A stretch of DNA of 53,109 bases from Clostridia bacterium (GTDB lineage Bacteria; Bacillota; Clostridia; UMGS1883; UMGS1540): assembly GCA_029006755.1 (NCBI GenBank), contig JAQXGO010000036.1, positions 1 to 53,109 on the forward strand, written 5' to 3'. A model generated the notes under the pieces. That model worked only from the letters and a program-made list of their open reading frames with translations, was not told the DNA's origin and did not search any database. Within the stretch, counting starts at the first letter, position 1; each line of letters begins with the position of its first letter. Shown here piece after piece: positions 370-50,061 of the stretch. The translations under genes were made by a program, and so were the position numbers.

Positions 370-2151
370 CTATCTGTACATAGGGCCATACTTTTTGCAA
401 GCTTCATAGTCAGCCGCCTGTGTATCTGTTGTGCCGAATGACGCCCATGCGTGAGGACGATAAACCTTGTCGTCTGCTACATTGTGCATTGTTACAGGAA
501 TACGGAGCATGGAGCACATTGTGATAATATCCGCACCAATATGCCCTCCGACTGTTACACTATGGTTTGCACCCCAGTTTGCCATAACGCTGTATACATC
601 TTTGAATGAACCCTCTCCCGTGAGGATTGGAGCGAACCAAGTTGTTGGCCAAGTTGGGTCTGTTCTCTTGTCAAGTTTGTCATGAATGTCGTTTTCGAGT
701 ATTACGGTGTAACCCTCTGCGATCTGAATCACCGGACCAATACCTTCAACAAGATTGAGTCTAAGCATTGTGACCGGCAGTTCTGCCTGTGTTTTAAAAT
801 GGCTTGAAAAACCACCGCCACGGAAGTATTCATAGTCAGCTCTGCACCAGTCTGTTGCATCAAGGCAAGCCTTGATATCAGCATCTGTCATATTCCACCA
901 TTCCTTAATGGTACCGTTTCCATTTTCGTCCTTTGCGGCACCTGTGCAGTCAAGTGCAGTTGCACCTGAGTTGATAAGGTGAATAATGCCGTTTGCAGCC
1001 TTGCCGCTAAGTTCCTTACCGGTCACTCTCTTTACAGCATCTGGTGACCAGTATGTGCGAACATCATGGAAGCAAGGTGCTTTCCCTGTAAGAAGTGTGC
1101 CAAAAAGCATTGAGATACCATTTAACGTATCATTCTCTGTTGCAAAAGCGGTAGGTGCTTTTTTGCCGTTCCAGTCAAATGATGATGCCATAATAGCTTC
1201 TGTAAAATCAGCATTAGGGAGCCAGTCTGTCCAGTTTCTTTGTCCTTGAAATCCGCCTGCAATTGCGTTTTTTCCAAGTGCTTCTTCATGCCATCCCATT
1301 TCACCTAGCTTTTCGTTCCCGTAAAGGATATCCTTAACAATAATTGAGAACTTGGCAATAAACTCCCAATCCTTGTCAGCAGGAATGGTTTTTGACTTTT
1401 TAATGATTTCAGGGAATGTCTTTCCCGCATTCTTGTCAAAACCTTCCTTACAATTTGCCTTAATCCAAGTCAAAGCCTTTTCATATTCGTCCTTGTCATA
1501 TATTTCGTGTGTAATTCTTCTGAGAATTTCTGTCAGGTCAACCCATTCCGCACGAATACCAAGATATTTCTGCATAAATGACATATCACAGTAAGAGCCG
1601 GCAATGCCCATGGACACACCGCCAAGGTTTACATAAGCCTTGTCCTTCATTTGACCAACTGCGATTGCCGCCTTTGCCCATCTTATCATCTTTTCTGTAA
1701 CATCATCAGGAACAGAATTATCTTCAATGTCTTGTACATCATGTCCGTACATTGAGAACGCAGGCAAGCCTCTCTGTGCAAATGCAGCCATAACTGCCGC
1801 CAGATAAACCGCTCCGGGTCTTTCTGTGCCGTTAAATCCCCAAACAGCCTTAATTGTATCCGAGCTTAAATCCATTGTTTCTGAACCATAGCACCAGCAA
1901 GGAGTAACCGCAAGTGTTGCACAGACATTTTGATTTTTAAAGAAATCAGCACACTTTGCCGCTTCTGCGCCACCACCAATTGTGCAAGGCGAGATAACAC
2001 ACTGAACAGGTGTTCCGTCCTGATATCTAACATTTGCTTCCATCAATTCCTTTGCAGCATTTGCCATTGCCATAGTTTTTGCCTCAAGGCCTTCACGTAC
2101 ACCGCCCCATCTTCCGTCGATGGTCGGTCTAATACCGATTTTTGGATACAT
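370..2151 (-). CDS. fucI: L-fucose isomerase
   Basis: Interconverts L-fucose and L-fuculose (also D-arabinose and D-ribulose) in the cytoplasm, the first step of fucose breakdown; a manganese enzyme. The 593-residue product matches the usual length of about 590. Candidate metal and catalytic residues fall at Glu339 (in TEND), Asp363 (in FHDV) and His530 (in GANHS), each two positions after the residues known in the E. coli enzyme (E337, D361, H528). The start is ATG behind AGGAGG. It lies 28 bases downstream of the mutarotase gene fucU, so the two form an operon, divergent from an AraC regulator. No fuculokinase, fuculose-phosphate aldolase or fucose transporter gene is in the window. Identity is secure. 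Confidence 0.96.
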   Translation of the reverse strand: MYPKIGIRPTIDGRWGGVREGLEAKTMAMANAAKELMEANVRYQDGTPVQCVISPCTIGGGAEAAKCADFFKNQNVCATLAVTPCWCYGSETMDLSSDTIKAVWGFNGTERPGAVYLAAVMAAFAQRGLPAFSMYGHDVQDIEDNSVPDDVTEKMIRWAKAAIAVGQMKDKAYVNLGGVSMGIAGSYCDMSFMQKYLGIRAEWVDLTEILRRITHEIYDKDEYEKALTWIKANCKEGFDKNAGKTFPEIIKKSKTIPADKDWEFIAKFSIIVKDILYGNEKLGEMGWHEEALGKNAIAGGFQGQRNWTDWLPNADFTEAIMASSFDWNGKKAPTAFATENDTLNGISMLFGTLLTGKAPCFHDVRTYWSPDAVKRVTGKELSGKAANGIIHLINSGATALDCTGAAKDENGNGTIKEWWNMTDADIKACLDATDWCRADYEYFRGGGFSSHFKTQAELPVTMLRLNLVEGIGPVIQIAEGYTVILENDIHDKLDKRTDPTWPTTWFAPILTGEGSFKDVYSVMANWGANHSVTVGGHIGADIITMCSMLRIPVTMHNVADDKVYRPHAWASFGTTDTQAADYEACKKYGPMYR

Positions 2152-2179
2152 AATTTTTACCTCCTAAATCATGAATATT

Positions 2180-2599
2180 TTATTGAATCACGCCTTTTTT
2201 CAACAATATATTTGCATAAAGAGCCCCTTCGCCTGTGGAAATAACAGCATATGCCTTTCTTGCTCTTTCATAAAATTCAAAACGGTCTATTTTTTCAAAA
2301 TCTGCGTCAGAATACTTTTTGGCTATTTTTTTATATGCATCCCATATAGGTGTTTCCACCGTATCGCCTGCCACCTTTTCCATAAGGAATAGAGGCTGCG
2401 CGTATGTATCAAGCGGCAAAAGCTGTAAAACCGCCTCAAAAACCTCAGCCGCATCGTTTCCGCTAAGGTAAACTACTCTTCTACCCATTTCAGCAGCAGG
2501 AAAGTTTCCGTCAGCAATTACAAGCTCGTCACCATGACCCATTTCGCACAGAATTTTCAACAAATCCGGGGGAATAATCTTAGGTATATTTTTAAGCAT
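2180..2599 (-). CDS. fucU: L-fucose mutarotase (RbsD/FucU family)
   Basis: Interconverts the alpha and beta anomers of L-fucose to feed the isomerase. At 139 residues it has the family length (about 140). The N-terminal segment with GHGDELVIADGNFP matches the conserved FucU/RbsD active-site region, including the early His-Gly-Asp. It starts with ATG behind GGAGG at six bases' spacing, and is the first gene of the fucU-fucI unit, driven by a promoter overlapping that of the divergent AraC gene. A ribose pyranase (RbsD) is the alternative family member, but direct linkage to fucI argues for fucose. Confidence 0.93.
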   Translation of the reverse strand: MLKNIPKIIPPDLLKILCEMGHGDELVIADGNFPAAEMGRRVVYLSGNDAAEVFEAVLQLLPLDTYAQPLFLMEKVAGDTVETPIWDAYKKIAKKYSDADFEKIDRFEFYERARKAYAVISTGEGALYANILLKKGVIQ

Positions 2600-2649
2600 A
2601 TCGAACCTCCATGTTTTATTTCACCATTTCTTAATCTCTAAACAATTTA

Positions 2650-2678
2650 ATTATATTATTGACTTGTTCCATTGTCTT
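2650..2678 (-). promoter_or_regulatory. Promoter of fucUI
   Basis: On the minus strand AAGACA (2678-2673) and TATAAT (2655-2650) are 17 bases apart, about 50 bases upstream of the fucU start. It overlaps the promoter of the divergent araC-type gene, so one regulator bound here could act on both. Confidence 0.6.
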
Positions 2679-2688
2679 GTGATATTAT
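2659..2688 (+). promoter_or_regulatory. Promoter of the AraC-family gene at 2729
   Basis: TTGACT (2659-2664) and TATTAT (2683-2688) with an 18-base spacer, about 40 bases before the start codon. It interleaves with the fucUI promoter on the other strand. Confidence 0.55.
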
Positions 2689-2728
2689 ATTAAAAAATAT
2701 AAATATTTTAACTATTTGGTGATTTTGA

Positions 2729-3541
2729 ATGAACGATTTTTCAAATTACGAATCCATTCGTAGAGGTACGCCCGATTTCCAGGTGGAATTATATGATGTA
2801 ACCAACAAGCACCCACGATATCATATGCAACACCACTGGCAAAACAGTTATGAAATTATTTATGTGGTGCATGGCACATTAACATTGCTTCTGAATAACA
2901 AAAAGATTGTGCTTCACCAGAGCGAAGCTGTATTTATTCCGGACGGAGTGATACATGGCGGAACGCCAACCAACTGCCGGTATATTTGTGTGGTTTTTTC
3001 CTCCTCTATTTTTTCTGCAACACAAAAAAGCCGTCTGATCACGAAAACCCGCATCAGACAGCCAATTTTGTTAAAAAATGAACCCTTGATTAAAACCATA
3101 ATTCAAGATATGATGGAAAAAAGTGACGGATATCAATTGTCCGTAATAGGAAATATTTATATACTGACACACAAGCTGTTGACAATGTGCTTGGATAACA
3201 AAATATCGACGAATATAAAAATAGAAAAAATAAAGCCTGCAATGGCATATATTGAAAGAAACTACTCCAAAAACATTACACTGTCTGACCTTGCCAAGGA
3301 ATGTTCTATGAGTCCAAATTATTTTTGTAGATTTTTTAAAAGCATCACAAACGAAACCCCTATCGGTTTCATAATACGTTATCGCATAGAAATGGCTTGC
3401 GAATTTCTTCTATCGGGTATGTCAATCACGGATACAGCCTATTCCTGCGGCTTTAATGATATAAGCTATTTTATAAATGTTTTCAAGCAACGAACAAACC
3501 TATCACCTAAGAAATATCAAATGCAGAATTCTCAATATTAA
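2729..3541 (+). CDS. AraC-family transcriptional regulator, probable fucose regulator
   Basis: A 270-residue one-component regulator. The N-terminal part (about 1-130) is cupin-like, with HHWQNSYEIIYV and HQSEAVFIPDGVIHG matching the effector-binding beta-barrel of AraC proteins. The last 100 residues carry the double helix-turn-helix, including LSDLAKECSMSPNYFCRFFK and AYSCGFNDISYFINVFK, and the closing SPKKYQ. It starts with ATG behind GGTGAT. Divergence from fucU, with overlapping promoters, points to control of fucUI in response to L-fucose or a derivative; that ligand is inferred, not visible. Confidence 0.9.
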   Translation: MNDFSNYESIRRGTPDFQVELYDVTNKHPRYHMQHHWQNSYEIIYVVHGTLTLLLNNKKIVLHQSEAVFIPDGVIHGGTPTNCRYICVVFSSSIFSATQKSRLITKTRIRQPILLKNEPLIKTIIQDMMEKSDGYQLSVIGNIYILTHKLLTMCLDNKISTNIKIEKIKPAMAYIERNYSKNITLSDLAKECSMSPNYFCRFFKSITNETPIGFIIRYRIEMACEFLLSGMSITDTAYSCGFNDISYFINVFKQRTNLSPKKYQMQNSQY

Positions 3542-3981
3542 AAAAGACAGATTTTTCAAAATCCATTCCGGATCGGTATTCTGTTTTGTGCCAAACACCA
3601 TACATCAGCCCGGTTTGTACGGCCAGCCTTCAAACCCTGAATCCTTGCGGATTTTCAAATTCTGGTCTTTCATTGACAAGAAGGGAAATATCTCGTCTTC
3701 CTCCATACAGTCTTGTATGCCCATCTCCCGCATTTCCTCCTTGTCAAAAATCTAAAATGAAAATGATTGATTTTGGTTTCCGTATTGAAGTCAATGGTGA
3801 AGATTTGCTCTCTTTTTATGGTTGCACCGAGAAAACCCATATAATTCCTTGTCCTGAAAAGAAAATTTTGAATATGCAAGACCGCATGACAAGCGTAAGT
3901 AGCGGCGATTCTTATAACTATCTTCTTGATAGCTCCTAAATTGCTGCAGCCATCGGCTTTGCAAACGTATACTGCTTTCTC
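3542..3981. other. Gene-poor stretch with probable decayed coding remnant
   Basis: Between the two AraC genes no intact gene is convincing. On the minus strand one frame (about 3744-3610) reads DKEEMREMGIQDCMEEDE followed by some 27 more plausible residues ending WPYKPG, hits a stop, then gives about 20 further plausible residues in the same frame. That suggests a small piece of a broken gene of unknown family. On the plus strand a frame from about 3757 to 3939 reads LLSFYGCTEKTHIIPCPE, faintly like a leucine-rich BspA-type repeat. Neither has a ribosome site. I could not assign a family. Confidence 0.3.
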
Positions 3982-4749
3982 TTATATGTTTTTAGCGTTC
4001 GGGTTTAATTTTTTGTACTGCATCGGCGATACACCGACGATTCGTTTAAAAATCCTGGAAAAATTCGGGTAATCGGAAAATCCTGCACGTGCAGCAATTT
4101 CGGAAAGCGGAAAATCATAAACCACCATAAGACGTTTGGCAAAGTCAACACGGCGCAGGTTTATAAATTCTATAATCGTTTGCCCTGTTTCTGCCCTAAA
4201 TAATGTGCTAAGATATTGCGGTGTAAGATGTATATGGGCAGAGAGGTTCTCCAGTGTAATTTTCTCCGCTATATGATCCTCGATATACTGTTTTGCTTTC
4301 ATTATATGAGGGTTTTGTCGCAAAGCATGTGTTTCGATCAGCTGATGATACAGAAAAGAAAAAAGTGCAACGCACTGCTCATACTGTACATCTGAAACAG
4401 AATGATATTCCTTTTGAAACATTTCCAGGAAAAAAAGTGTATTTCTTGTTACACTCTTCGGCAGATAGCCGGAAAGCGTCGGCGTAAAATCATTGGAAAA
4501 CTGAATATTAAAGCTGGCATAAAACACATCTCCCTTTTCAAAAGTACGCTGGCGTTTTGCTCCCGGCGGAAATAAAATTGCATCCCCACTTTGTAAACGT
4601 ATACGTTCATCGTTATAATAGTATTCCATTGTGCCTGATAACAGATATGTCAAATCCATATATGGCAATTTGCGAGGCGGCAACCACATCGTTACATCTT
4701 TTTTTGATAAGTTATATCGCAGAAACTTTATTTCATTTGTAAACAGCAT
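3982..4749 (-). CDS. AraC-family transcriptional regulator
   Basis: A 255-residue regulator with an N-terminal cupin-like sensor (about 20-90, including LLSGTMEYYYNDERI and GDAILFPPGAKRQ) and a C-terminal AraC DNA-binding domain (ITLENLSAHIHLTPQYLSTL, then IAARAGFSDYPNFSRIFKR and SPMQYKKL). I place the start at the ATG at 4749, behind AAGGTGAT, rather than at the in-frame ATG 33 bases upstream, which lacks a ribosome site. It faces away from the secreted carbohydrate-binding and SLH genes at 5057-9320, so it is the natural candidate for their regulator. The signal it senses is unknown. Confidence 0.88.
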   Translation of the reverse strand: MLFTNEIKFLRYNLSKKDVTMWLPPRKLPYMDLTYLLSGTMEYYYNDERIRLQSGDAILFPPGAKRQRTFEKGDVFYASFNIQFSNDFTPTLSGYLPKSVTRNTLFFLEMFQKEYHSVSDVQYEQCVALFSFLYHQLIETHALRQNPHIMKAKQYIEDHIAEKITLENLSAHIHLTPQYLSTLFRAETGQTIIEFINLRRVDFAKRLMVVYDFPLSEIAARAGFSDYPNFSRIFKRIVGVSPMQYKKLNPNAKNI

Positions 4750-4845
4750 ATTTATCACCTTAAAATCAAACAACTTTTTCAAGAAAATCCTTAATACTAA
4801 TCATTTCACTTTGCTTGGAAAAGTGGTACAATTAGTTATGAAAAC

Positions 4846-4874
4846 AGTATAGCATTTTTTTTTATTTAAAACAA
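4846..4874 (-). promoter_or_regulatory. Promoter of the AraC-family gene at 4749
   Basis: Minus-strand TTGTTT (4874-4869) and TATACT (4851-4846) with a 17-base spacer. No equally good promoter for the plus-strand gene at 5057 was found in the 180 bases to the right, which are AT-rich. Confidence 0.5.
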
Positions 4875-5056
4875 GGAATTTGTAAAAAAAACATTTCAAA
4901 AGCAGAAATTCTGGCTTTAAACCGATAGGCAAGCCTTTTTGCAAAGACCTATTATGCTAAGATTATATGAACGATTAAATACAGAATGTATGAGTTTTCA
5001 CATTTACATCTGTTTTTATTCGGTAAGTATAAAAAAATGAAAGGAAGAGGTAAAAA

Positions 5057-6118
5057 ATGAAAGGAATTTTAAAAAAATCAATCGCACTATCCATTATGGC
5101 AGCAATCCTTATCAGCATGGCTGTTCCGGCGGCAGCGAATACAAATGTTCTTCCGGGTGGCGGATTTGAAAGTTTATTGACCAATGAATTCGCAACTTCA
5201 ACGGATGAAATCGAGATTACCAACGCAGTCGGAAACGGTTATTCGTTCGGCGGAGGTGCCTGGACAATCTGGGCAAGCAATGCCGCTGTTCCGGCCACTC
5301 TTAACTATAATGGCGGAAATCCATGGGTGGCCATTAACAGAACCAACGCCGGCTATATGACTCTTACATCAGCTCCTTTTGCTATTTCACGCGGTGCCAC
5401 ATACAGACTTTCGTTTGATTATCGCTCCGGCATAAAAAATACTAAAGCTATGCTTAGAGCTAACTTGATTCATTGTACCGAAGAGGGTGATGGCAGCGGC
5501 AGCTCGGTACTATTTACATCGCAGACAGGTGCAAATACTGCATTTCATCATGTAGAAGTATATTTTACTTGTCCAACAAGCCGTTCCAATATTAAAAAGG
5601 CACAGCTTCAGTTTATGCTTGAAGACAGAATCGAAAAAGTAATGCTACAGAATCTTTCCATGGAAATATGTGACGAAAATACTGTTTTGTGGTATAATAC
5701 AACCGATACAATTGAAACCAATGCAGTACAGGTAAATCCTTGGTTTAAAGATACCTATGGTTACAGTATTGCACATGTTATGCAAACCAATTCTGGCCAG
5801 ACACCTGTTTTGGCACCTACGGTAGGGAATTCCTATACGGTAATCAAAGCATTACCTGTTGTGGTAGAGGCCGAAGGCGTCATTCCCGTTATGATTCTTG
5901 CACAGTATAAAGGGACTTCTCTGAATTCGGTGAATATCATCGATAATCTTTCTCCGGCACTTGATGCATCGTCAGGGCTTTATATACAAAATTTAAAGGG
6001 TGAAACGATAACTGTAAATGCCGGCACCGATACCTACAAGGCATTCTATTGGAAAAGCTTTAGCAGTATGAATCCACAGAGTCAAATGGGAATGGGCAGT
6101 GTACTGCCACAGATGTAA
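5057..6118 (+). CDS. Secreted protein with a carbohydrate-binding-like beta-sandwich
   Basis: The 353-residue product begins with a classic signal peptide (basic MKGILKK, a hydrophobic stretch, then PAAANT; cleavage near residue 27). Residues about 30-205 look like a CenC/CBM4-9-type jelly roll: NVLPGGGFESL at the start, AWTIWASNAA, then YMTLTSAPFAISRGATYRLSFDYRS, all typical of these glycan-binding folds. The C-terminal 130 residues are unassigned, with no catalytic motif and no SLH or LPXTG anchor. The start is ATG behind GGAAGAGG. The SLH-anchored hydrolase-like gene follows after 16 bases, so the two are probably co-transcribed and act together outside the cell. Function beyond sugar binding is unknown. 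Confidence 0.7.
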   Translation: MKGILKKSIALSIMAAILISMAVPAAANTNVLPGGGFESLLTNEFATSTDEIEITNAVGNGYSFGGGAWTIWASNAAVPATLNYNGGNPWVAINRTNAGYMTLTSAPFAISRGATYRLSFDYRSGIKNTKAMLRANLIHCTEEGDGSGSSVLFTSQTGANTAFHHVEVYFTCPTSRSNIKKAQLQFMLEDRIEKVMLQNLSMEICDENTVLWYNTTDTIETNAVQVNPWFKDTYGYSIAHVMQTNSGQTPVLAPTVGNSYTVIKALPVVVEAEGVIPVMILAQYKGTSLNSVNIIDNLSPALDASSGLYIQNLKGETITVNAGTDTYKAFYWKSFSSMNPQSQMGMGSVLPQM

Positions 6119-10004: not shown

Positions 10005-10056
10005 AGGAGCCGTAGCAAAAAGATTTTGAATCATCATTTTGCTACGGCTCCCTCTT
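10005..10056. terminator. Module A hairpin, bidirectional terminator for upp
   Basis: GGAGCCGTAGCAAAA and TTTTGCTACGGCTCC form a 15-bp perfect stem around a loop of about 17 bases. T-rich sequence follows on both strands (CTCTTTTT on plus, TTTTGG on minus). It lies 11 bases past the upp stop codon. Nearly identical hairpins stand at 38424-38469 and 49866-49911. Confidence 0.8.
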
Positions 10057-16856: not shown

Positions 16857-18209
16857 ATGCGCAGAAAGATGCAGGTGGATTTTTTAGAAGGCGGCATTTT
16901 AAAAAATGTTATTTTATTTGCAATTCCACTGATTTTAAGTGGAATCTTGCAACTGCTTTTTAATGCGGCAGACATCATTGTTGTAGGAAACTTTGCCGGC
17001 AGTCATGAAATGGGCGCGGTGGGATCTACCGGGTCAACGACAAACCTGCTGATTTCTATCGGTATAGGACTTTCCGTTGGCTTAAATGTTGTGGTTGCAC
17101 AAAGTGTTGGAGCCGGAAATAGGGAAATGGTGCAGCGTTCTGTACATACAGGTATGTGTCTGAGTCTTGCGGTAGGCCTTGCTCTTGGAATGATAGGATA
17201 CTTTTGCGCAGCTTCGCTTTTGCGCCTTTTAAGTACACCTCTGGATATCATTGACAGCGCAACCGTATATTTGCGTGCATATTGCATGGGGATTCCGTTT
17301 AATATTATATATAACTTCGGCAGCGCTGTTCTGCGTGCCAATGGAGATACAAGGCGTCCGCTTTTTTTTATGACCATTGCCGGTGTTGTCAATGTAGTTT
17401 TAAACATTATCTTTGTACGGCAGTTTCATTTGGGTGCGTTGGGGGTTGGGATTGCAACGGCAATTTCGCAGTTTGTTTCTGCGACGTTGGTGGTTTGCTG
17501 TCTTTTGACCGAGCAAAGCGTGGTACAGCTTTGTATCAAAAAACTTCGATTTCATAAAGAAGAAACATTTCGTATAATGATGATCGGTCTGCCGGCCGGG
17601 ATCCAAAGCTCTTTGTTTGCCATTTCCAACATGCTGATACAATCTTCTGTAAATTCCTTTGGAGCAGATGCAGTTGCAGGGAATTCGGCTGTTATGAATT
17701 TGGAAGGGTTTATTTACATAGCCATGAACTCCATTTATCAAACGATTGTCACTTTCACTGCACAAAACCGCGGGGCAGGAAAGTATCAACGTGTCAACAA
17801 AGGACTGGTTGTCAGCATGGGCTGTGTAATCGCAATCGGAGTGATTTTAGGATCCATGTTTCAAATTTTTCCCAGGGAACTGATTTCTCTTTACACAAGG
17901 GATGAAAAGGCCATTTTATATGGCTTGATTCGTGTACCGTTTTTCGCTTTGCCGTATTGCCTTTGCGGGCTAATGGAAACAATCATGGGTGCGGTGCGCG
18001 GATTGGGATATTCCATGATGCCGCTGATTACATCGCTGCTTGGCTCCTGCTTTTTCCGGATTGCCTGGGTACAAACAGTCTTTGCACAGCATAGAACCTT
18101 GCAAAGTTTGTATTTGTCCTATCCGATTTCGTGGGCGCTCACAGCATCCATTCATTTGGCGTGTTTCCTGCTTGTACGGAAAAAAGCCTTTCAAAAGAAT
18201 ACCATATAA
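16857..18209 (+). CDS. MATE-family multidrug/metabolite exporter
   Basis: A 450-residue membrane protein with about 12 hydrophobic segments. The start RKMQVDFLEGGILKNVILFAIPLILSG and the repeated halves with QLLFNAADIIVVGNF and GFIYIAMNSIYQTIVTF are characteristic of the MATE fold (NorM/DinF-like; usual length 440-480). It would export cationic drugs or metabolites in exchange for Na+ or H+. The substrate cannot be read from the sequence. Start ATG behind AGGAGG. It lies between a Dabb protein and spoIVB, with no regulator beside it. Confidence 0.92.
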   Translation: MRRKMQVDFLEGGILKNVILFAIPLILSGILQLLFNAADIIVVGNFAGSHEMGAVGSTGSTTNLLISIGIGLSVGLNVVVAQSVGAGNREMVQRSVHTGMCLSLAVGLALGMIGYFCAASLLRLLSTPLDIIDSATVYLRAYCMGIPFNIIYNFGSAVLRANGDTRRPLFFMTIAGVVNVVLNIIFVRQFHLGALGVGIATAISQFVSATLVVCCLLTEQSVVQLCIKKLRFHKEETFRIMMIGLPAGIQSSLFAISNMLIQSSVNSFGADAVAGNSAVMNLEGFIYIAMNSIYQTIVTFTAQNRGAGKYQRVNKGLVVSMGCVIAIGVILGSMFQIFPRELISLYTRDEKAILYGLIRVPFFALPYCLCGLMETIMGAVRGLGYSMMPLITSLLGSCFFRIAWVQTVFAQHRTLQSLYLSYPISWALTASIHLACFLLVRKKAFQKNTI

Positions 18210-18285
18210 GCACAAAAAATTAACATTATTTTTATGGTCTATCTTGCGTTCTTTTGGTTACAGTAAAAGAGAGGTGAGAACGACT

Positions 18286-19485
18286 TTGAAACTTTATAAA
18301 CAGTTTTTTAAAGCACTGACCGCAGTGCTTTTATTTATTTTCATGCAGGGGTATCAACAGGCAGCAGCCGTTCCAAGTTCTCTGATTATGCAAAGAGGAG
18401 AAACACACAGTTTGCCGCCTTATCTTTCCGCGTATGCACCGAAAGACAGTTTTTTATTCAAAAACAACCAGGTCATTCCAACCCAAAGCGGCACATTTGC
18501 AATGCATTTTTCTCTTTTGGGATTATTCCCTAAAACAACCGATGTGCAAGTAGTAGAACCTGCAACGGTTACATTGGGCGGAGAAACCGTAGGCATAAAG
18601 CTTTTTTTGGACGGTGTTTTGGTGGTAGGCATTTCTGAAATTCCGGGGAGTGAAAGGAAAAGCCCGGGCAGAGATGCAGGGATACAGGTGGGGGATAGAA
18701 TTTTACGCGCCGGCGGAAAAACCCTTCGCGACAGCGATATGCTGAACAGCATTGTGGAAAACAGTGAGGGAAAGCCGATTACCTTGTCGGTATGCAGGGG
18801 AGAAGAAGAATGGGATACAGTCGTAACGCCGGTGTATTATGCGGAGGGCGGTGCATATAAACTCGGCCTTTGGGTGCGGGAAAGCACAGCCGGTATAGGG
18901 ACAGTAACCTTCTCCCTGCCGGAGAAAAATGTATATGCAGCATTAGGACATGGCATTGAAGATCCGGATGCCGGTACAATGCTTGCAGTGGCAAAAGGAA
19001 GTATTACGGATTGTGATATTGCCCAGATAATCCCCGGGGAACAAGGATCGCCCGGAGAACTGCGCGGCGTTTTTCATGCGAAAGATATAGGTACGGTAGA
19101 CAAAAATATATCCGTCGGCATTTACGGGCATTTACAACACAGCTTAGGCGATACTGTCCGTGTTCCCATCGCTGTCAGTACCCAAGTAAAAAGCGGCGCG
19201 GCCCAAATCTTTTGTGAGGTGGATGGTGCTGTGCGTGGGTATAATGCCGAAATTGAAAAGCTGTTACCGTACAGTACAAACAGCACGAAAAGCATGATTC
19301 TCCATGTGACGGACGAACAGCTTTTGGCGCAGACGGGGGGCATTGTACAGGGGATGAGCGGTAGTCCGATTGTGCAGGACGGGCGGCTTGTCGGCGCAGT
19401 TACCCATGTGTTTGTCAATGACCCTACAAGAGGATACGGTATTTTTGCAGAAACGATGCTTGACGCACTGCACGAGGCAGCTTGA
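18286..19485 (+). CDS. spoIVB: SpoIVB serine protease
   Basis: In sporulating Bacillota SpoIVB is secreted from the forespore and triggers SpoIVFB-dependent pro-sigma-K processing. The 399-residue product has an N-terminal membrane/signal segment (about 6-25), a PDZ domain (about 110-180, with GRDAGIQVGDRILRAGGK) and a C-terminal S55 peptidase domain with the catalytic serine in GMSGSPIVQDGRLVGAVTHV; a His in YAALGHGIEDPD fits the rest of the site. I start it at TTG 18286, eight bases after AGGTGA; the longer open frame back to 18040 lies inside the MATE gene. It does not sit next to recN and spo0A as in most relatives. Confidence 0.93.
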   Translation: MKLYKQFFKALTAVLLFIFMQGYQQAAAVPSSLIMQRGETHSLPPYLSAYAPKDSFLFKNNQVIPTQSGTFAMHFSLLGLFPKTTDVQVVEPATVTLGGETVGIKLFLDGVLVVGISEIPGSERKSPGRDAGIQVGDRILRAGGKTLRDSDMLNSIVENSEGKPITLSVCRGEEEWDTVVTPVYYAEGGAYKLGLWVRESTAGIGTVTFSLPEKNVYAALGHGIEDPDAGTMLAVAKGSITDCDIAQIIPGEQGSPGELRGVFHAKDIGTVDKNISVGIYGHLQHSLGDTVRVPIAVSTQVKSGAAQIFCEVDGAVRGYNAEIEKLLPYSTNSTKSMILHVTDEQLLAQTGGIVQGMSGSPIVQDGRLVGAVTHVFVNDPTRGYGIFAETMLDALHEAA

Positions 19486-19617: not shown

Positions 19618-20418
19618 ATGAATCGATTAAAGGACAAAGTTGCCATTGTCACCGGTTCTACCGGCGGTATTGGCACGGGTATTGCAAAGCTTTTTGCAGC
19701 GGAAGGCGCATCTGTTGTTGTCTGTGGTCGCCGCGAGGCGAAAGGCCAGGCTGTTGTGGATGCAATTAAGGAAAATGGGGGCGAAGCTTCGTTCCATTTT
19801 ATGGACATCTTGCAGGTAGAAAGTATTGAAGCTCTGGTGAAGGACACTGCTGAAAAGTACGGGAAAATTGATATTTTGGTCAACAATGCCGCGAATGTAG
19901 GCTTGAAGGATGGTCGTGTGGATGAGTTGACTTTGGATATGTGGGATGCTGTCTTTCACTCCGACCTGCGTGGCACATTCTATGCGACCAAATGCGTCAT
20001 CCCCTATATGCAACAGAATAACGGAGGTTCTATTATCAACATTGGCTCCATGGCATCCTGTGGTGGCGATTTAGGCGCTACGGCTTATGCTTGCGCAAAG
20101 GCGGGTGTGGACATGCTCACCCAGTCCACTGCTCTGCAGTATGGCAAATCCAACATTCGGTGTAACTGTGTGCGCCCCGGTCTGATTGTTACGCCCGACA
20201 ATGAGGCAAAAGTTCCGCAGGTTCTGAAAGATATATTCCTCAACAACATTATGGTACCCCGTTACGGCTGCCCGGAAGATATTGCCAATATATGTGTGTA
20301 TCTGGGATCCGACGAAAGTACATTTTTCACAGGGCAGGTGCTTACAGTGGACGGCGGCCTGAATAGCCATGTTTCTACGGTTGGCGAGTTCAAAAAGATG
20401 GCAGGTCGTACCTGGTAA
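19618..20418 (+). CDS. Short-chain dehydrogenase/reductase (classical SDR)
   Basis: A 266-residue NAD(P)-dependent oxidoreductase. It has the Rossmann motif TGSTGGIGTG (about 13-22), the NNAA motif in ILVNNAANVG, catalytic Ser in INIGSMAS and the YxxxK pair in AYACAKAG, and ends with the tetramer-forming segment FFTGQVLTVDGGL plus a tail of about 20 residues. It resembles FabG and the hydroxysteroid dehydrogenases of gut Clostridia (BaiA-like), but the substrate cannot be assigned. It is a single-gene unit with its own strong promoter and a ribosome site of AGGAGGT, and faces feoB across a multi-hairpin element. Confidence 0.9.
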   Translation: MNRLKDKVAIVTGSTGGIGTGIAKLFAAEGASVVVCGRREAKGQAVVDAIKENGGEASFHFMDILQVESIEALVKDTAEKYGKIDILVNNAANVGLKDGRVDELTLDMWDAVFHSDLRGTFYATKCVIPYMQQNNGGSIINIGSMASCGGDLGATAYACAKAGVDMLTQSTALQYGKSNIRCNCVRPGLIVTPDNEAKVPQVLKDIFLNNIMVPRYGCPEDIANICVYLGSDESTFFTGQVLTVDGGLNSHVSTVGEFKKMAGRTW

Positions 20419-20459
20419 TTTCACTGCATGATGCCGTCAGGCTAAACTTGTATGCACTA

Positions 20460-20543
20460 AAAATGGACTGCCGCAGCACGAAGTGGTTTCGCAGGGGATG
20501 TTGCCCCTTTGATTGCAATCACTCGTGAGTGGCAGTCCATTTT
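20460..20543. repeat. Multi-hairpin element between convergent SDR and feoB genes
   Basis: A perfect 13-bp inverted pair, AAAATGGACTGCC (20460-20472) and GGCAGTCCATTTT (20531-20543), encloses four small palindromes: CACGAAGTG (20477-20485), GGGG...CCCC (20494-20507), GATTGCAATC (20511-20520) and CACTCGTGAGTG (20520-20531). Folded, it would be a multibranched loop. It may end transcription of both genes, but the stem is not followed by a long T-run. It shares GCAAAATGGACTGC with the 3' part of the feoB coding sequence. Confidence 0.65.
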
Positions 20544-20575
20544 GCAGAAACGAGCGCAATGCATTGCAGATTGCA

Positions 20576-22678
20576 TCAGCGTATGCAGCTGATAAAAACG
20601 TTGAAGAGAATACAGAGCAGGATTCCGCAAATGGTAGGCAGGGCAACGGCAATCGCAGTCCATTTTGCGCTGCCTGTTTCTTTTTTTATTGTCAGCATGG
20701 TCGTCGAACAAGGCCAATGCACCAGTGTGAAAAGGAGCATGGAAGCGGCGGTTTGCCATGTCCAGCCATTTTGTACAAGAACGGTATGCAGGGCATTGGT
20801 GTCACTGACCTCCGGCAGACTACCCGTTGCCATATAGGTCATAAGGATAAGCGGCATGACAATTTCGTTGGCCGGAAAACCTAAAATAAAGGCAAGCAGG
20901 ATAACCCCATCCAGTCCCATAAGACGGGCAAACGGATCAAAAAATGCGGCGCAATGGGAGAGAATGCTTGTGCCATGCACAGAAACATTTGCAAGCAGCC
21001 AAATGACAAGACCGGCAGGTGCAGCAATGGCCACAGCGCGCCCCAAAACAAAAAGGGTTCTATCCAGTACCGAACGCACAATGACGCGCCCCAATTGCGG
21101 ACGACGGTAGGGCGGCAGCTCCAATGTGAAGGAGGAGGGAACGCCCTTTAATACCGTTTTAGTTAAAATCTTTGTGGCCGCAAAGGTCAAAAGTATACTT
21201 AACAAGATGAAGAACGTGAGGAGGGCGGCAGATAAAAGCGAAGGGAAAAGACCGGCTTCCGCACTGACGAAAAACATAGTGATTAACAGAATCAAGGTTG
21301 GAAATCGACCGTTACAGGGCACAAAGCTGTTGGTTAAAATGGCAAGGAGCCGCTCACGCGGAGAGTCAATAATGCGGCAGCCTACAACCCCTGCAGCATT
21401 ACAGCCGAAGCCCATACACATGGTCAGCGCCTGCTTCCCACAAGCACAACATCTTTTAAAGGGTTTATCGAGATTATATGCAATGCGCGGTAGGTATCCG
21501 GCATCCTCCAAGAGTGTAAAAAGCGGAAAGAAGATGGCCATGGGCGGCAGCATAACGGAAACAACAGAGGCAAGTACGCGGTAAACCCCAAGAATCAGTG
21601 CGCCGTAAAGCCAATCCGGCATGTTGATCTGCAAACAAAATGCCGTAAGATATGTCTGTAATTGATTAAACAATGCAGAAAGTAAGGCCGAAGGGTAATT
21701 GGCACCCGTGATGGTAAGCCAGAAAATAAACGCCAGGAAGAACAACATAATAGGATATGCTGTAAACCGTCCGGTTAGGAGCTTGTCGAGCTGTCTGTCA
21801 AACTTATTATAGGTATCTTTTTCATATGTAATAGCACCTTGGCATATTTTTTCTGCAGCTTGCACCAAGGCGGATACAATCGCGTCCTTTATCTTGTCGC
21901 TGTCCATACCTTTTTCTGCTAAATCGCTTAAGATGGCCTGCGTCTCCCTTGTGAGAACTTCATCGTTGGAAAACGAAGGATTCCCCTGCAAAATCTGCAA
22001 ACAAACCCACCTTGGATTCAAGACGAGGGAGGATGGCAGGAAAGGGGAAAGGCGAGCGATTGCGTCTTCAATTTCTGCCGGATACGAAACTGCGTATGGC
22101 GTTGTAACTCTTTTTTTCTCTACTACGGCAGTGACAGCTTTTAATAAAGCTTGCAGGCTTCGCTTCTTTCTTGCAATTGTGCTGACAACCGGCACGCCTA
22201 ATCTTTTTTCAATTTTGCCTAAATCCAGACGAATATGCTTTCGCGCGGCTTCATCCATAAGGTTTACGCATACAACTGTCTGGGGGCATAATTCAATGGT
22301 TTGTAAAACTAAATTCAGGTTGCGTTCCAGACAGGTTGCGTCACAGACAACCACCACGGCATCCGGCTCGCCGGAGCATAGCAAATCTCTGGCAACCTCT
22401 TCTTCTGCAGAATGGGGCATCAAGGAGTAGGTCCCCGGGATGTCTACTAACACATAGGTATTTCCTCCATCTTTGCATATCCCCTGGGCGGTGGCAACTG
22501 TTTTCCCCGGCCAATTACCGGTATGCTGATGCATACCGGTCAGGCTGTTAAAAACTGTGCTTTTTCCAACATTGGGGTTGCCGGCAAGGGCAATAACCCG
22601 ATCCTGGGGAGATGTTTTTTCAATGATAAGACCGCTGTCCACCGCATGTATGCCGATAGAACTGTTTGTTAATCCCAA
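20576..22678 (-). CDS. feoB: Ferrous iron transporter FeoB
   Basis: Imports Fe2+ across the cytoplasmic membrane. The 700-residue protein has an N-terminal G-protein domain (about 28-190) with G1 in AGNPNVGKST, G2/G3 in TGNWPGKTVA and VDIPGTYSL, and G4 in VNLMDEA. The membrane region (from about 285) has gate-like repeats with conserved cysteines, including CCACGKQALTMCMGFGCNAA. It starts with TTG at 22678, seven bases after GAGGAGG. feoA lies 12 bases upstream, so they are an operon; no feoC is present. Confidence 0.96.
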   Translation of the reverse strand: MGLTNSSIGIHAVDSGLIIEKTSPQDRVIALAGNPNVGKSTVFNSLTGMHQHTGNWPGKTVATAQGICKDGGNTYVLVDIPGTYSLMPHSAEEEVARDLLCSGEPDAVVVVCDATCLERNLNLVLQTIELCPQTVVCVNLMDEAARKHIRLDLGKIEKRLGVPVVSTIARKKRSLQALLKAVTAVVEKKRVTTPYAVSYPAEIEDAIARLSPFLPSSLVLNPRWVCLQILQGNPSFSNDEVLTRETQAILSDLAEKGMDSDKIKDAIVSALVQAAEKICQGAITYEKDTYNKFDRQLDKLLTGRFTAYPIMLFFLAFIFWLTITGANYPSALLSALFNQLQTYLTAFCLQINMPDWLYGALILGVYRVLASVVSVMLPPMAIFFPLFTLLEDAGYLPRIAYNLDKPFKRCCACGKQALTMCMGFGCNAAGVVGCRIIDSPRERLLAILTNSFVPCNGRFPTLILLITMFFVSAEAGLFPSLLSAALLTFFILLSILLTFAATKILTKTVLKGVPSSFTLELPPYRRPQLGRVIVRSVLDRTLFVLGRAVAIAAPAGLVIWLLANVSVHGTSILSHCAAFFDPFARLMGLDGVILLAFILGFPANEIVMPLILMTYMATGSLPEVSDTNALHTVLVQNGWTWQTAASMLLFTLVHWPCSTTMLTIKKETGSAKWTAIAVALPTICGILLCILFNVFISCIR

Positions 22679-38423: not shown

Positions 38424-38474
38424 GGAGCCGTAGCAAAATGATTTTGTAAAATCTTTTTGCCACGGCTCCTTTTT
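38424..38474 (+). terminator. Module A hairpin terminating the Gfo/Idh gene
   Basis: GGAGCCGTAGCAAAA and TTTTTGCCACGGCTCC (one G:T-type change) form a stem followed by TTTTTG, 25 bases past the stop codon. Same family as the hairpins at 10005 and 49866. Confidence 0.8.
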
Positions 38475-49814: not shown

Positions 49815-50061
49815 TAAAAAGTAGACTTCTGCGTTCTTCGGCTAAGCGCATATAAAAATGGTAAAGGAGCCGTAGCAAAATGATGATTCAAAATCTTTTT
49901 GCTACGGCTCCTTTTGGGTCTGGAGAAAAATAGTGCAATTTGTTCATAGCATAAAGCATTTTTATTTTAAGAAATGCATTGTTTAGCAAATTTCCACCCT
50001 AACGTTTTGACTCTTATAAGGCTTATCCGCATATTCTCAAGAATAGTATGCTTTATGCGTT
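49815..50061 (+). repeat. Modular structured repeat, locus 4 (D-A-deleted B-C)
   Basis: Module D (about 49815-49864) is followed by module A (49866-49911; a 15-bp stem ending in CTTTTGG, a bidirectional terminator for noc and the aconitase gene). The flanks of module B (49920-49949) are joined directly, lacking the roughly 75-base structured core. Module C (about 49948-50061) is bounded by GCATAAAGCA and TGCTTTATGC; its right arm includes the aconitase stop codon. The order and orientation match locus 1 (B-C). Confidence 0.85.

Follow-up and report, generated by a model that had tools for sequence, protein, structure and literature searches.

The element skin intervenes in sigK, and both skin and gin are excised for sporulation. 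Integrons hold cargo behind a fixed anchor, each piece ended by a recombination site, and the anchor is whole after each addition; the core sites of integron attC read RYYYAAC and GTTRRRY. In the parts of the sources covered here, gin lies in gerE of B. cereus and has three serine recombinases (PMC5595907), yin is an intervening element in yabG (PMC10747680), and the attP of phage serine recombinases is an inverted repeat, symmetric around central dinucleotides (PMC5595907). Other large serine recombinases have single target genes, with one conserved gene serving as attB and a two-base core (PMC10083194, in the sections covered).

The window analyzed here is a stretch of 53,109 nucleotides from a Clostridia bacterium (contig JAQXGO010000036.1), in which the order spoIVB, SDR gene, site, feoB is found, with a long hairpin in the gap between the last two genes. 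We propose, from comparison of sequences, that the right half of this hairpin (20499-20549) is very probably the decayed attR of a family of mobile elements that recombine at one codon of spoIVB (GIVQGM/SGSP). The features are as follows.

18040-19485, + strand: spoIVB open reading frame, intact, with PF05580 at 18853-19461
19354-19356, + strand: ATG, spoIVB recombination point, just before SGSP
19618-20418, + strand: SDR-family oxidoreductase, probable cargo gene
20419-20575: SDR-feoB gap, between two convergent stops
20460-20543, no strand assigned: long imperfect hairpin, specific to the window, probable two-way terminator, with its right arm in the putatively spoIVB-derived half
20460-20472: left arm, AAAATGGACTGCC, 13 nt
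20499-20525, + strand: putative decayed element half-site P, TGTTGCCCCTTTGATTGCAATCACTCG, to be compared with the consensus TGTTGTCCC.TATTGACA.CA.TCG; carries a 2-nt insertion
20526-20527, + strand: presumed crossover dinucleotide TG, from the GTG end in the fragment and the ATG end in spoIVB
20528-20549, + strand: putative start of the displaced spoIVB 3' end, AGTGGCAGTCC, reading S-G-S-P
20531-20543: right arm, GGCAGTCCATTTT, 13 nt
20539-20575, + strand: what is likely left of the final spoIVB codons, with an internal deletion before it; weaker support than the core site
20576-22678, - strand: feoB (TIGR00437), convergent neighbour
20655-20668, no strand assigned: second occurrence of the right-arm 14-mer, inside feoB, probably by coincidence

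The family resembles the intervening elements of sporulation genes, as far as those sources are covered, in its large serine recombinases (three in gin) and in its insertion inside a sporulation gene. It differs from gin, yin and skin in targeting spoIVB and in including units, found in 15 genomes, that have a whole spoIVB, no such recombinase and cargo of a metabolic or defence-like kind and that sometimes form rows; the window, moreover, has an intact spoIVB and a decayed site. As in integrons, the spoIVB units would be added behind a fixed anchor that is left whole each time, and each is ended by a recombination site. In contrast to integrons, which use tyrosine recombinases, the spoIVB sites are associated with serine recombinases and include a piece of spoIVB itself, and the window element is without attC core sites (the 84 nt of the hairpin contain no AAC and no GTT followed by three purines). 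The single-target large serine recombinases share with the family the use of one conserved target gene, here spoIVB, and a two-base core; the covered portion of PMC10083194 describes no units in which the target gene is whole and a recombinase is lacking, and the word spoIV is absent from its main text. No spoIVB-targeting element was found among the open-licence papers listed, judged by titles, term counts and the openings of abstracts, nor in the covered portions of PMC10083194, PMC10747680 and PMC5595907. The gene spoIVB, which encodes a sporulation protease, would be a hotspot for mobile DNA whose att sites are defined closely enough to be tested, and its units suggest a cassette-like gain of genes without an integron integrase. 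A plain-looking terminator gap can, on this reading of the window, be the scar of an element insertion.

The 84-nt feature at 20460-20543 is one long hairpin and not four palindromes. A perfect 13-bp inverted pair had been predicted here and is present: the two arms are 100% complementary with 58 nt between them, and 8 of 20,000 dinucleotide shuffles of the gap give such a pair. The 84 nt fold with an energy of -46.7 kcal/mol on the + strand and -40.1 kcal/mol on the - strand, and none of 1000 shuffles was as good for either strand. A self-complementarity far above chance, as originally claimed, is borne out for the whole 84 nt; the 58-nt interior taken alone is only mildly unusual in its fold (equalled by 23 and 25 of 1000 shuffles). 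Description of the feature as a multi-hairpin element does not stand, because the small repeats do not fold separately: enforcing them gives -29.3 kcal/mol at best, 17 kcal/mol worse than the single long stem. Two of the internal palindromes had been called perfect; this is true of GATTGCAATC, which is its own reverse complement, but CACTCGTGAGTG is a 5-bp stem with a 2-nt loop. The feature lies at convergent 3' ends, as first noted: the SDR gene stops at 20418 and feoB, read from the other side, at 20576.

A 121-nt query covering the hairpin gave a single full match in its own genome. Model R1, which was made from two copies of one sequence and is a weak test of the fold, matched only itself, and a search of 40 genomes (G000 included) for the hairpin as a repeat gave three matches, at chance level. 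On these grounds the reading of the hairpin as a dispersed repeat was rejected. The arm pair was absent from the GTDB contigs scanned, no Rfam family reached its gathering score for the feature (the weak matches being at chance level), and hidden open reading frames across the hairpin had no Pfam match. A genome-wide search, which the original prediction had suggested, thus leaves the hairpin as such unique, but not the putative attachment site within it.

Before any profile was made, a BLAST search of 98 genomes matched 20499-20550 to one place, in G044 (E 8.3e-5 with a shorter query). The match in G044 proved to be a spoIVB 3' end that has been displaced. With up to one mismatch, the pattern ATCACTCGTGAGTGGNAGTCC occurs in 3 of 391 class genomes, namely the window's own genome, G044 and G017, and in the latter two a displaced spoIVB 3' end begins with it, in the frame VSGSPIIQ...GYGIFIENML. 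In both, this end follows genes for a pyruvate-formate-lyase-like (PFL-like) enzyme and a radical-SAM activase, assigned by Pfam in G044.

Displaced spoIVB 3' ends of this kind recur across the class, taken to be Clostridia on the strength of FeoB matches. PF05580 has matches in 281 of the 391 class genomes and two or more in 32; a second PF05580 search covered these 32 multi-match genomes plus G000 and G035. There are 28 extra short matches, in 21 genomes and nine families, which start at profile position 175 (27 matches) or 176 (one match), and these spoIVB 3' fragments end at profile position 209 or 210. Left uncounted were six short C-terminal matches, starting at 152, 168, 182 (two), 185 and 192, together with longer matches resembling paralogues or genes cut by contig ends. 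Eighteen of the 28 fragments share contig and strand with a full spoIVB and lie 2-13 kb downstream of it, and the other 10 are on contigs without a full spoIVB; in G043, G104 and G374 two fragments follow in a row on one contig. Before the junction there is a conserved motif, which at the 22 sites first read is TGTTGTCCC.TATTGACA.CA.TCG-TG. A profile was built from these 22 junctions with the remaining six fragments kept out, and all six independent fragments match it with E 4e-13 or better. The uncounted match starting at 185 (in G374) carries the motif as well.

When the profile of these 22 other sites was run against the window and own-genome sample (425 kb), its best match was 20499-20549 (E 4.4e-6), and its second match was the window's own spoIVB at 19355-19379, the predicted codon (E 0.31). 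The SGSP codons directly follow the core in the window (GTG and then AGTGGCAGTCC), and the site follows both spoIVB and the SDR gene, reading downstream along their common strand (19485 -> 19618-20418 -> 20499). The P half alone gave E 3.3 and ranked second, and with an ungapped matrix the window site scored 3.7 bits compared with 26-68 for the others, again second in the sample; these low scores arise because of the 2-nt insertion plus other changes.

The gap also resembles the end of the window's own spoIVB. The gap, within 20539-20575, and spoIVB have in common the exact 14-mer TTTTGCAGAAACGA (19443-19456 in spoIVB), and the alignment of the gap with the spoIVB end was equalled by 6, 2 and 1 of 2000 shuffles in three scorings and outscored all 1678 window chunks tested. 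A PF05580 search of the gap found no spoIVB fragment. The gap is readable against spoIVB in two partly different registers, and we read it as a decayed, internally deleted copy of a displaced spoIVB end, in which the deletion would reconcile the two registers. The original prediction had hinted at a local duplication with feoB as partner; a duplication is upheld, but spoIVB, across the SDR gene, is the better supported partner.

Given the order of genes in the window, in which spoIVB directly precedes the SDR gene, the SDR gene is probably cargo. Two further units, in G237 and G304, also carry SDR genes as cargo. Among 60 genomes, a match to the window's SDR gene at E 1e-60 was found only in G035 besides its own genome. 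G035 has the closest SDR relative (83%), which speaks against cargo: its spoIVB is on a different contig, and no spoIVB 3' end was found in the 3.8 kb around its SDR gene. No empty site or sister genome displaying the insertion event at the window was found, and spoIVB is whole in the window, with no interruption.

Three tandem large serine recombinases lie just before the site in G011, in G016 and in an unannotated record, MT836038.1. Pfam, run on the third recombinase of G011 and all three of MT836038.1, identified Resolvase/Recombinase domains, and the third recombinase of G016 is 93% identical to that of G011. In G011, G016 and G096 the spoIVB match stops at the same codon (...GGI[IV]QGM) and is followed by GTG[AT]GTTATAATAGGGACAACA, a left end whose reverse complement resembles P. 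The mirror half-site GTGAGTTATAATAGGGACAACA, or a version one base off, is found in all three genomes, and P and the reverse-complemented left ends have TGTTGTCCC, TATT and CACTC in common. Because spoIVB in these three genomes is split by an inverted form of P, P-TG-P' is, judged from the letters, a dyad about the two-base core, as is usual for the attP of large serine recombinases; this applies to the family and not to the window. No recombinase gene is present in the window. A close recombinase relative is likewise absent from the window and the sampled quarter of the genome, where the best identity is 25% (L202 and L209), and none of the four recombinases compared had a match at E 1e-10 in the regions fetched from the 15 genomes in which one contig carries both an entire spoIVB and such a fragment.

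In the genomes with the three split genes, interrupted right before SGSP (L294, L295 and L296), excision of the splitting element may be needed to sporulate, as with skin or gin. MT836038.1 (L300) contains, at 1007-5781, three tandem serine recombinases and the att site, together with a spoIVB 3' end in displaced position. The record is labelled Bacteriophage sp., but by eye the genes after its spoIVB end look bacterial, and its source may therefore be a bacterial contig and not a phage. Plasmids gave no match to the feature or the site. In the phage search 20455-20550 was unmatched, and a 40-nt site query matched one record. The exact site pattern is absent from viral contigs; these include 62 stretches with the 15-mer GGCAGTCCATTTTGC, none of which has the arm pair. 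One viral stretch matching CACTCGTGAGTGG.AGTCC lies inside an open frame and was taken as chance.

The hairpin probably serves as a two-way terminator, a predicted role for a hairpin that is stable on both strands between convergent stops. As far as the sources are covered, it resembles bidirectional intrinsic terminators in this placement and in its A and T runs (PMC1852404, PMC5381666, PMC12207403), but differs from them in its length of 84 nt, compared with the stem-loop size limit of 59 nt in TransTermHP (quoted in PMC12207403), and in the shortness of its T runs (4 and 5 only). A pattern scan for terminators did not call it. If the hairpin were a bidirectional intrinsic terminator alone, its likeness to the spoIVB site would be chance, and we regard this as improbable. 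Strong hairpins are nevertheless the rule at convergent gaps. In a gap sample of 425,254 bases (the window and 32 stretches), the median hairpin energy is -23.8 kcal/mol for convergent gaps (n = 22), compared with -7.6 for divergent (n = 28) and -7.7 kcal/mol for co-directional gaps (n = 75), and when three gaps of contig C17 are removed as artefacts, 12 of the remaining 19 convergent gaps, the window's own included, are at -15 kcal/mol or better. Beside FeoB relatives, to which the original prediction had pointed for comparison, hairpins are frequent but unrelated to that of the window: other hairpins were seen by eye at the same gap in 8 of 13, and 62 of 79 usable loci are at -12 kcal/mol or better, a count without a shuffle control. 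A hairpin at the window position is therefore ordinary, though long, and the P half by itself is not significant. Against a terminator alone, the best match in 425 kb of a profile made from other genomes falls where it was predicted, no more than 1.2 kb from spoIVB, and the gap has its additional likeness to the window's own spoIVB end.

Still more improbable is a derivation of the arms from feoB through a local template switch. The arm sequence GCAGTCCATTTTGC does recur in feoB at 20655-20668, as had been claimed; a 14-mer common to the gap and 300 nt of the feoB end was given by 17 of 20,000 shuffles, and AAAATGGACTGC is present four times in the genome, three of them within 207 bp. A strict direct alignment of the gap with feoB was equalled by 9 of 1000 shuffles (8 of 2000 in a second run) and by 9 of 1038 chunks, and a lax inverted alignment, consisting mostly of gaps, by 2 of 1000 shuffles and 2 of 2064 chunks. 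The same-sense gapped alignment with the feoB end, however, is not significant in lax scorings, and a 12-mer common to gap and gene occurs in 1 of 79 other FeoB gaps. The 14-mer match is probably a coincidence, because the right arm is already explained by the spoIVB half-site, and feoB was rejected as an unlikely source of the arms. The hairpin was also considered as a piece of the attachment machinery itself. This was ruled out by the 22 other attachment sites, none of which has the hairpin or inverted arms longer than 7 nt, and whose folds range from -5.5 to -24.4 kcal/mol compared with -47.8 kcal/mol at the window.

The reading of the window site as a decayed attR places it in a family whose members differ in what they carry. 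In 15 genomes the units combine cargo with an entire spoIVB and lack such a recombinase, and some of them form rows. Their cargo, identified from the ten-odd proteins scanned, comprises a PFL-like enzyme with its activase, AraC and GntR regulators, an EamA transporter, a DHDPS-family protein, FAD and zinc-type dehydrogenases and an AbiEii toxin. In two families (L221 in G017 and L222 in G044) a spoIVB site closes an AraC-PFL-activase unit, and the stretches from activase to site are 79% identical over 931 nt, which suggests transfer between the two families.

For the recombinase-bearing elements ordinary attP x attB integration would suffice. The units with a whole spoIVB would need an extra step, because on the left they begin with a spoIVB 3' end instead of P'. 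By one route, a P/spoIVB-end junction would recombine in trans with spoIVB and the anchor would be regenerated each time, as in an integron; by another, homologous recombination would take place inside the spoIVB end. From the first route we put forward, tentatively and as a possibility short of probable, that Clostridia have an integron-like capture of genes via serine recombinases with spoIVB as anchor. Cargo circles with a P/spoIVB-3'-end would join in trans, a whole spoIVB would be regenerated and the former end pushed outward, giving rows of cargo and passage between distant families, and the window would be a worn unit. A spread of the spoIVB 3' copies by homologous recombination of DNA circles with a spoIVB end, rather than by site-specific recombination, is less likely than not. 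It would fit the 15 genomes with recombinase-free units and whole spoIVB, and a displaced end provides more than 100 nt of homology; against it, all 28 fragments begin at one fixed codon behind the conserved P motif, and the recombinase triads lie at the same site. Homologous recombination could still account for the movement of the recombinase-free units.

For the window itself, the preferred reading as a decayed attR implies that recombination at the GIVQGM/SGSP codon linked spoIVB to DNA with the SDR gene, and that spoIVB either stayed whole or regained its wholeness after the joining. The old spoIVB 3' end would have been pushed behind the SDR gene and then have decayed. The left half of the hairpin would have arisen later, and the stem would now terminate transcription between SDR and feoB, both ways.

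A different hairpin is an abundant dispersed family genome-wide. Hairpins of GGAGCCRTAGCAAAA are found in the window at 10006-10055, 38424-38473 and 49866-49915, and with up to one mismatch the genome has 57 forward and 53 reverse GGAGCCRTAGCAAAA sites, with none for the reversed control. This hairpin was flagged in 4 of the 19 sampled convergent gaps. The feature at 20460-20543 had been described as distinct from the A-D modules, and the GGAGCCRTAGCAAAA arm is indeed absent from its 84 nt. Positions 1-16706 of contig C17 (L194) are identical to their own reverse complement, which represents either a fold-back assembly artefact or a palindromic molecule.
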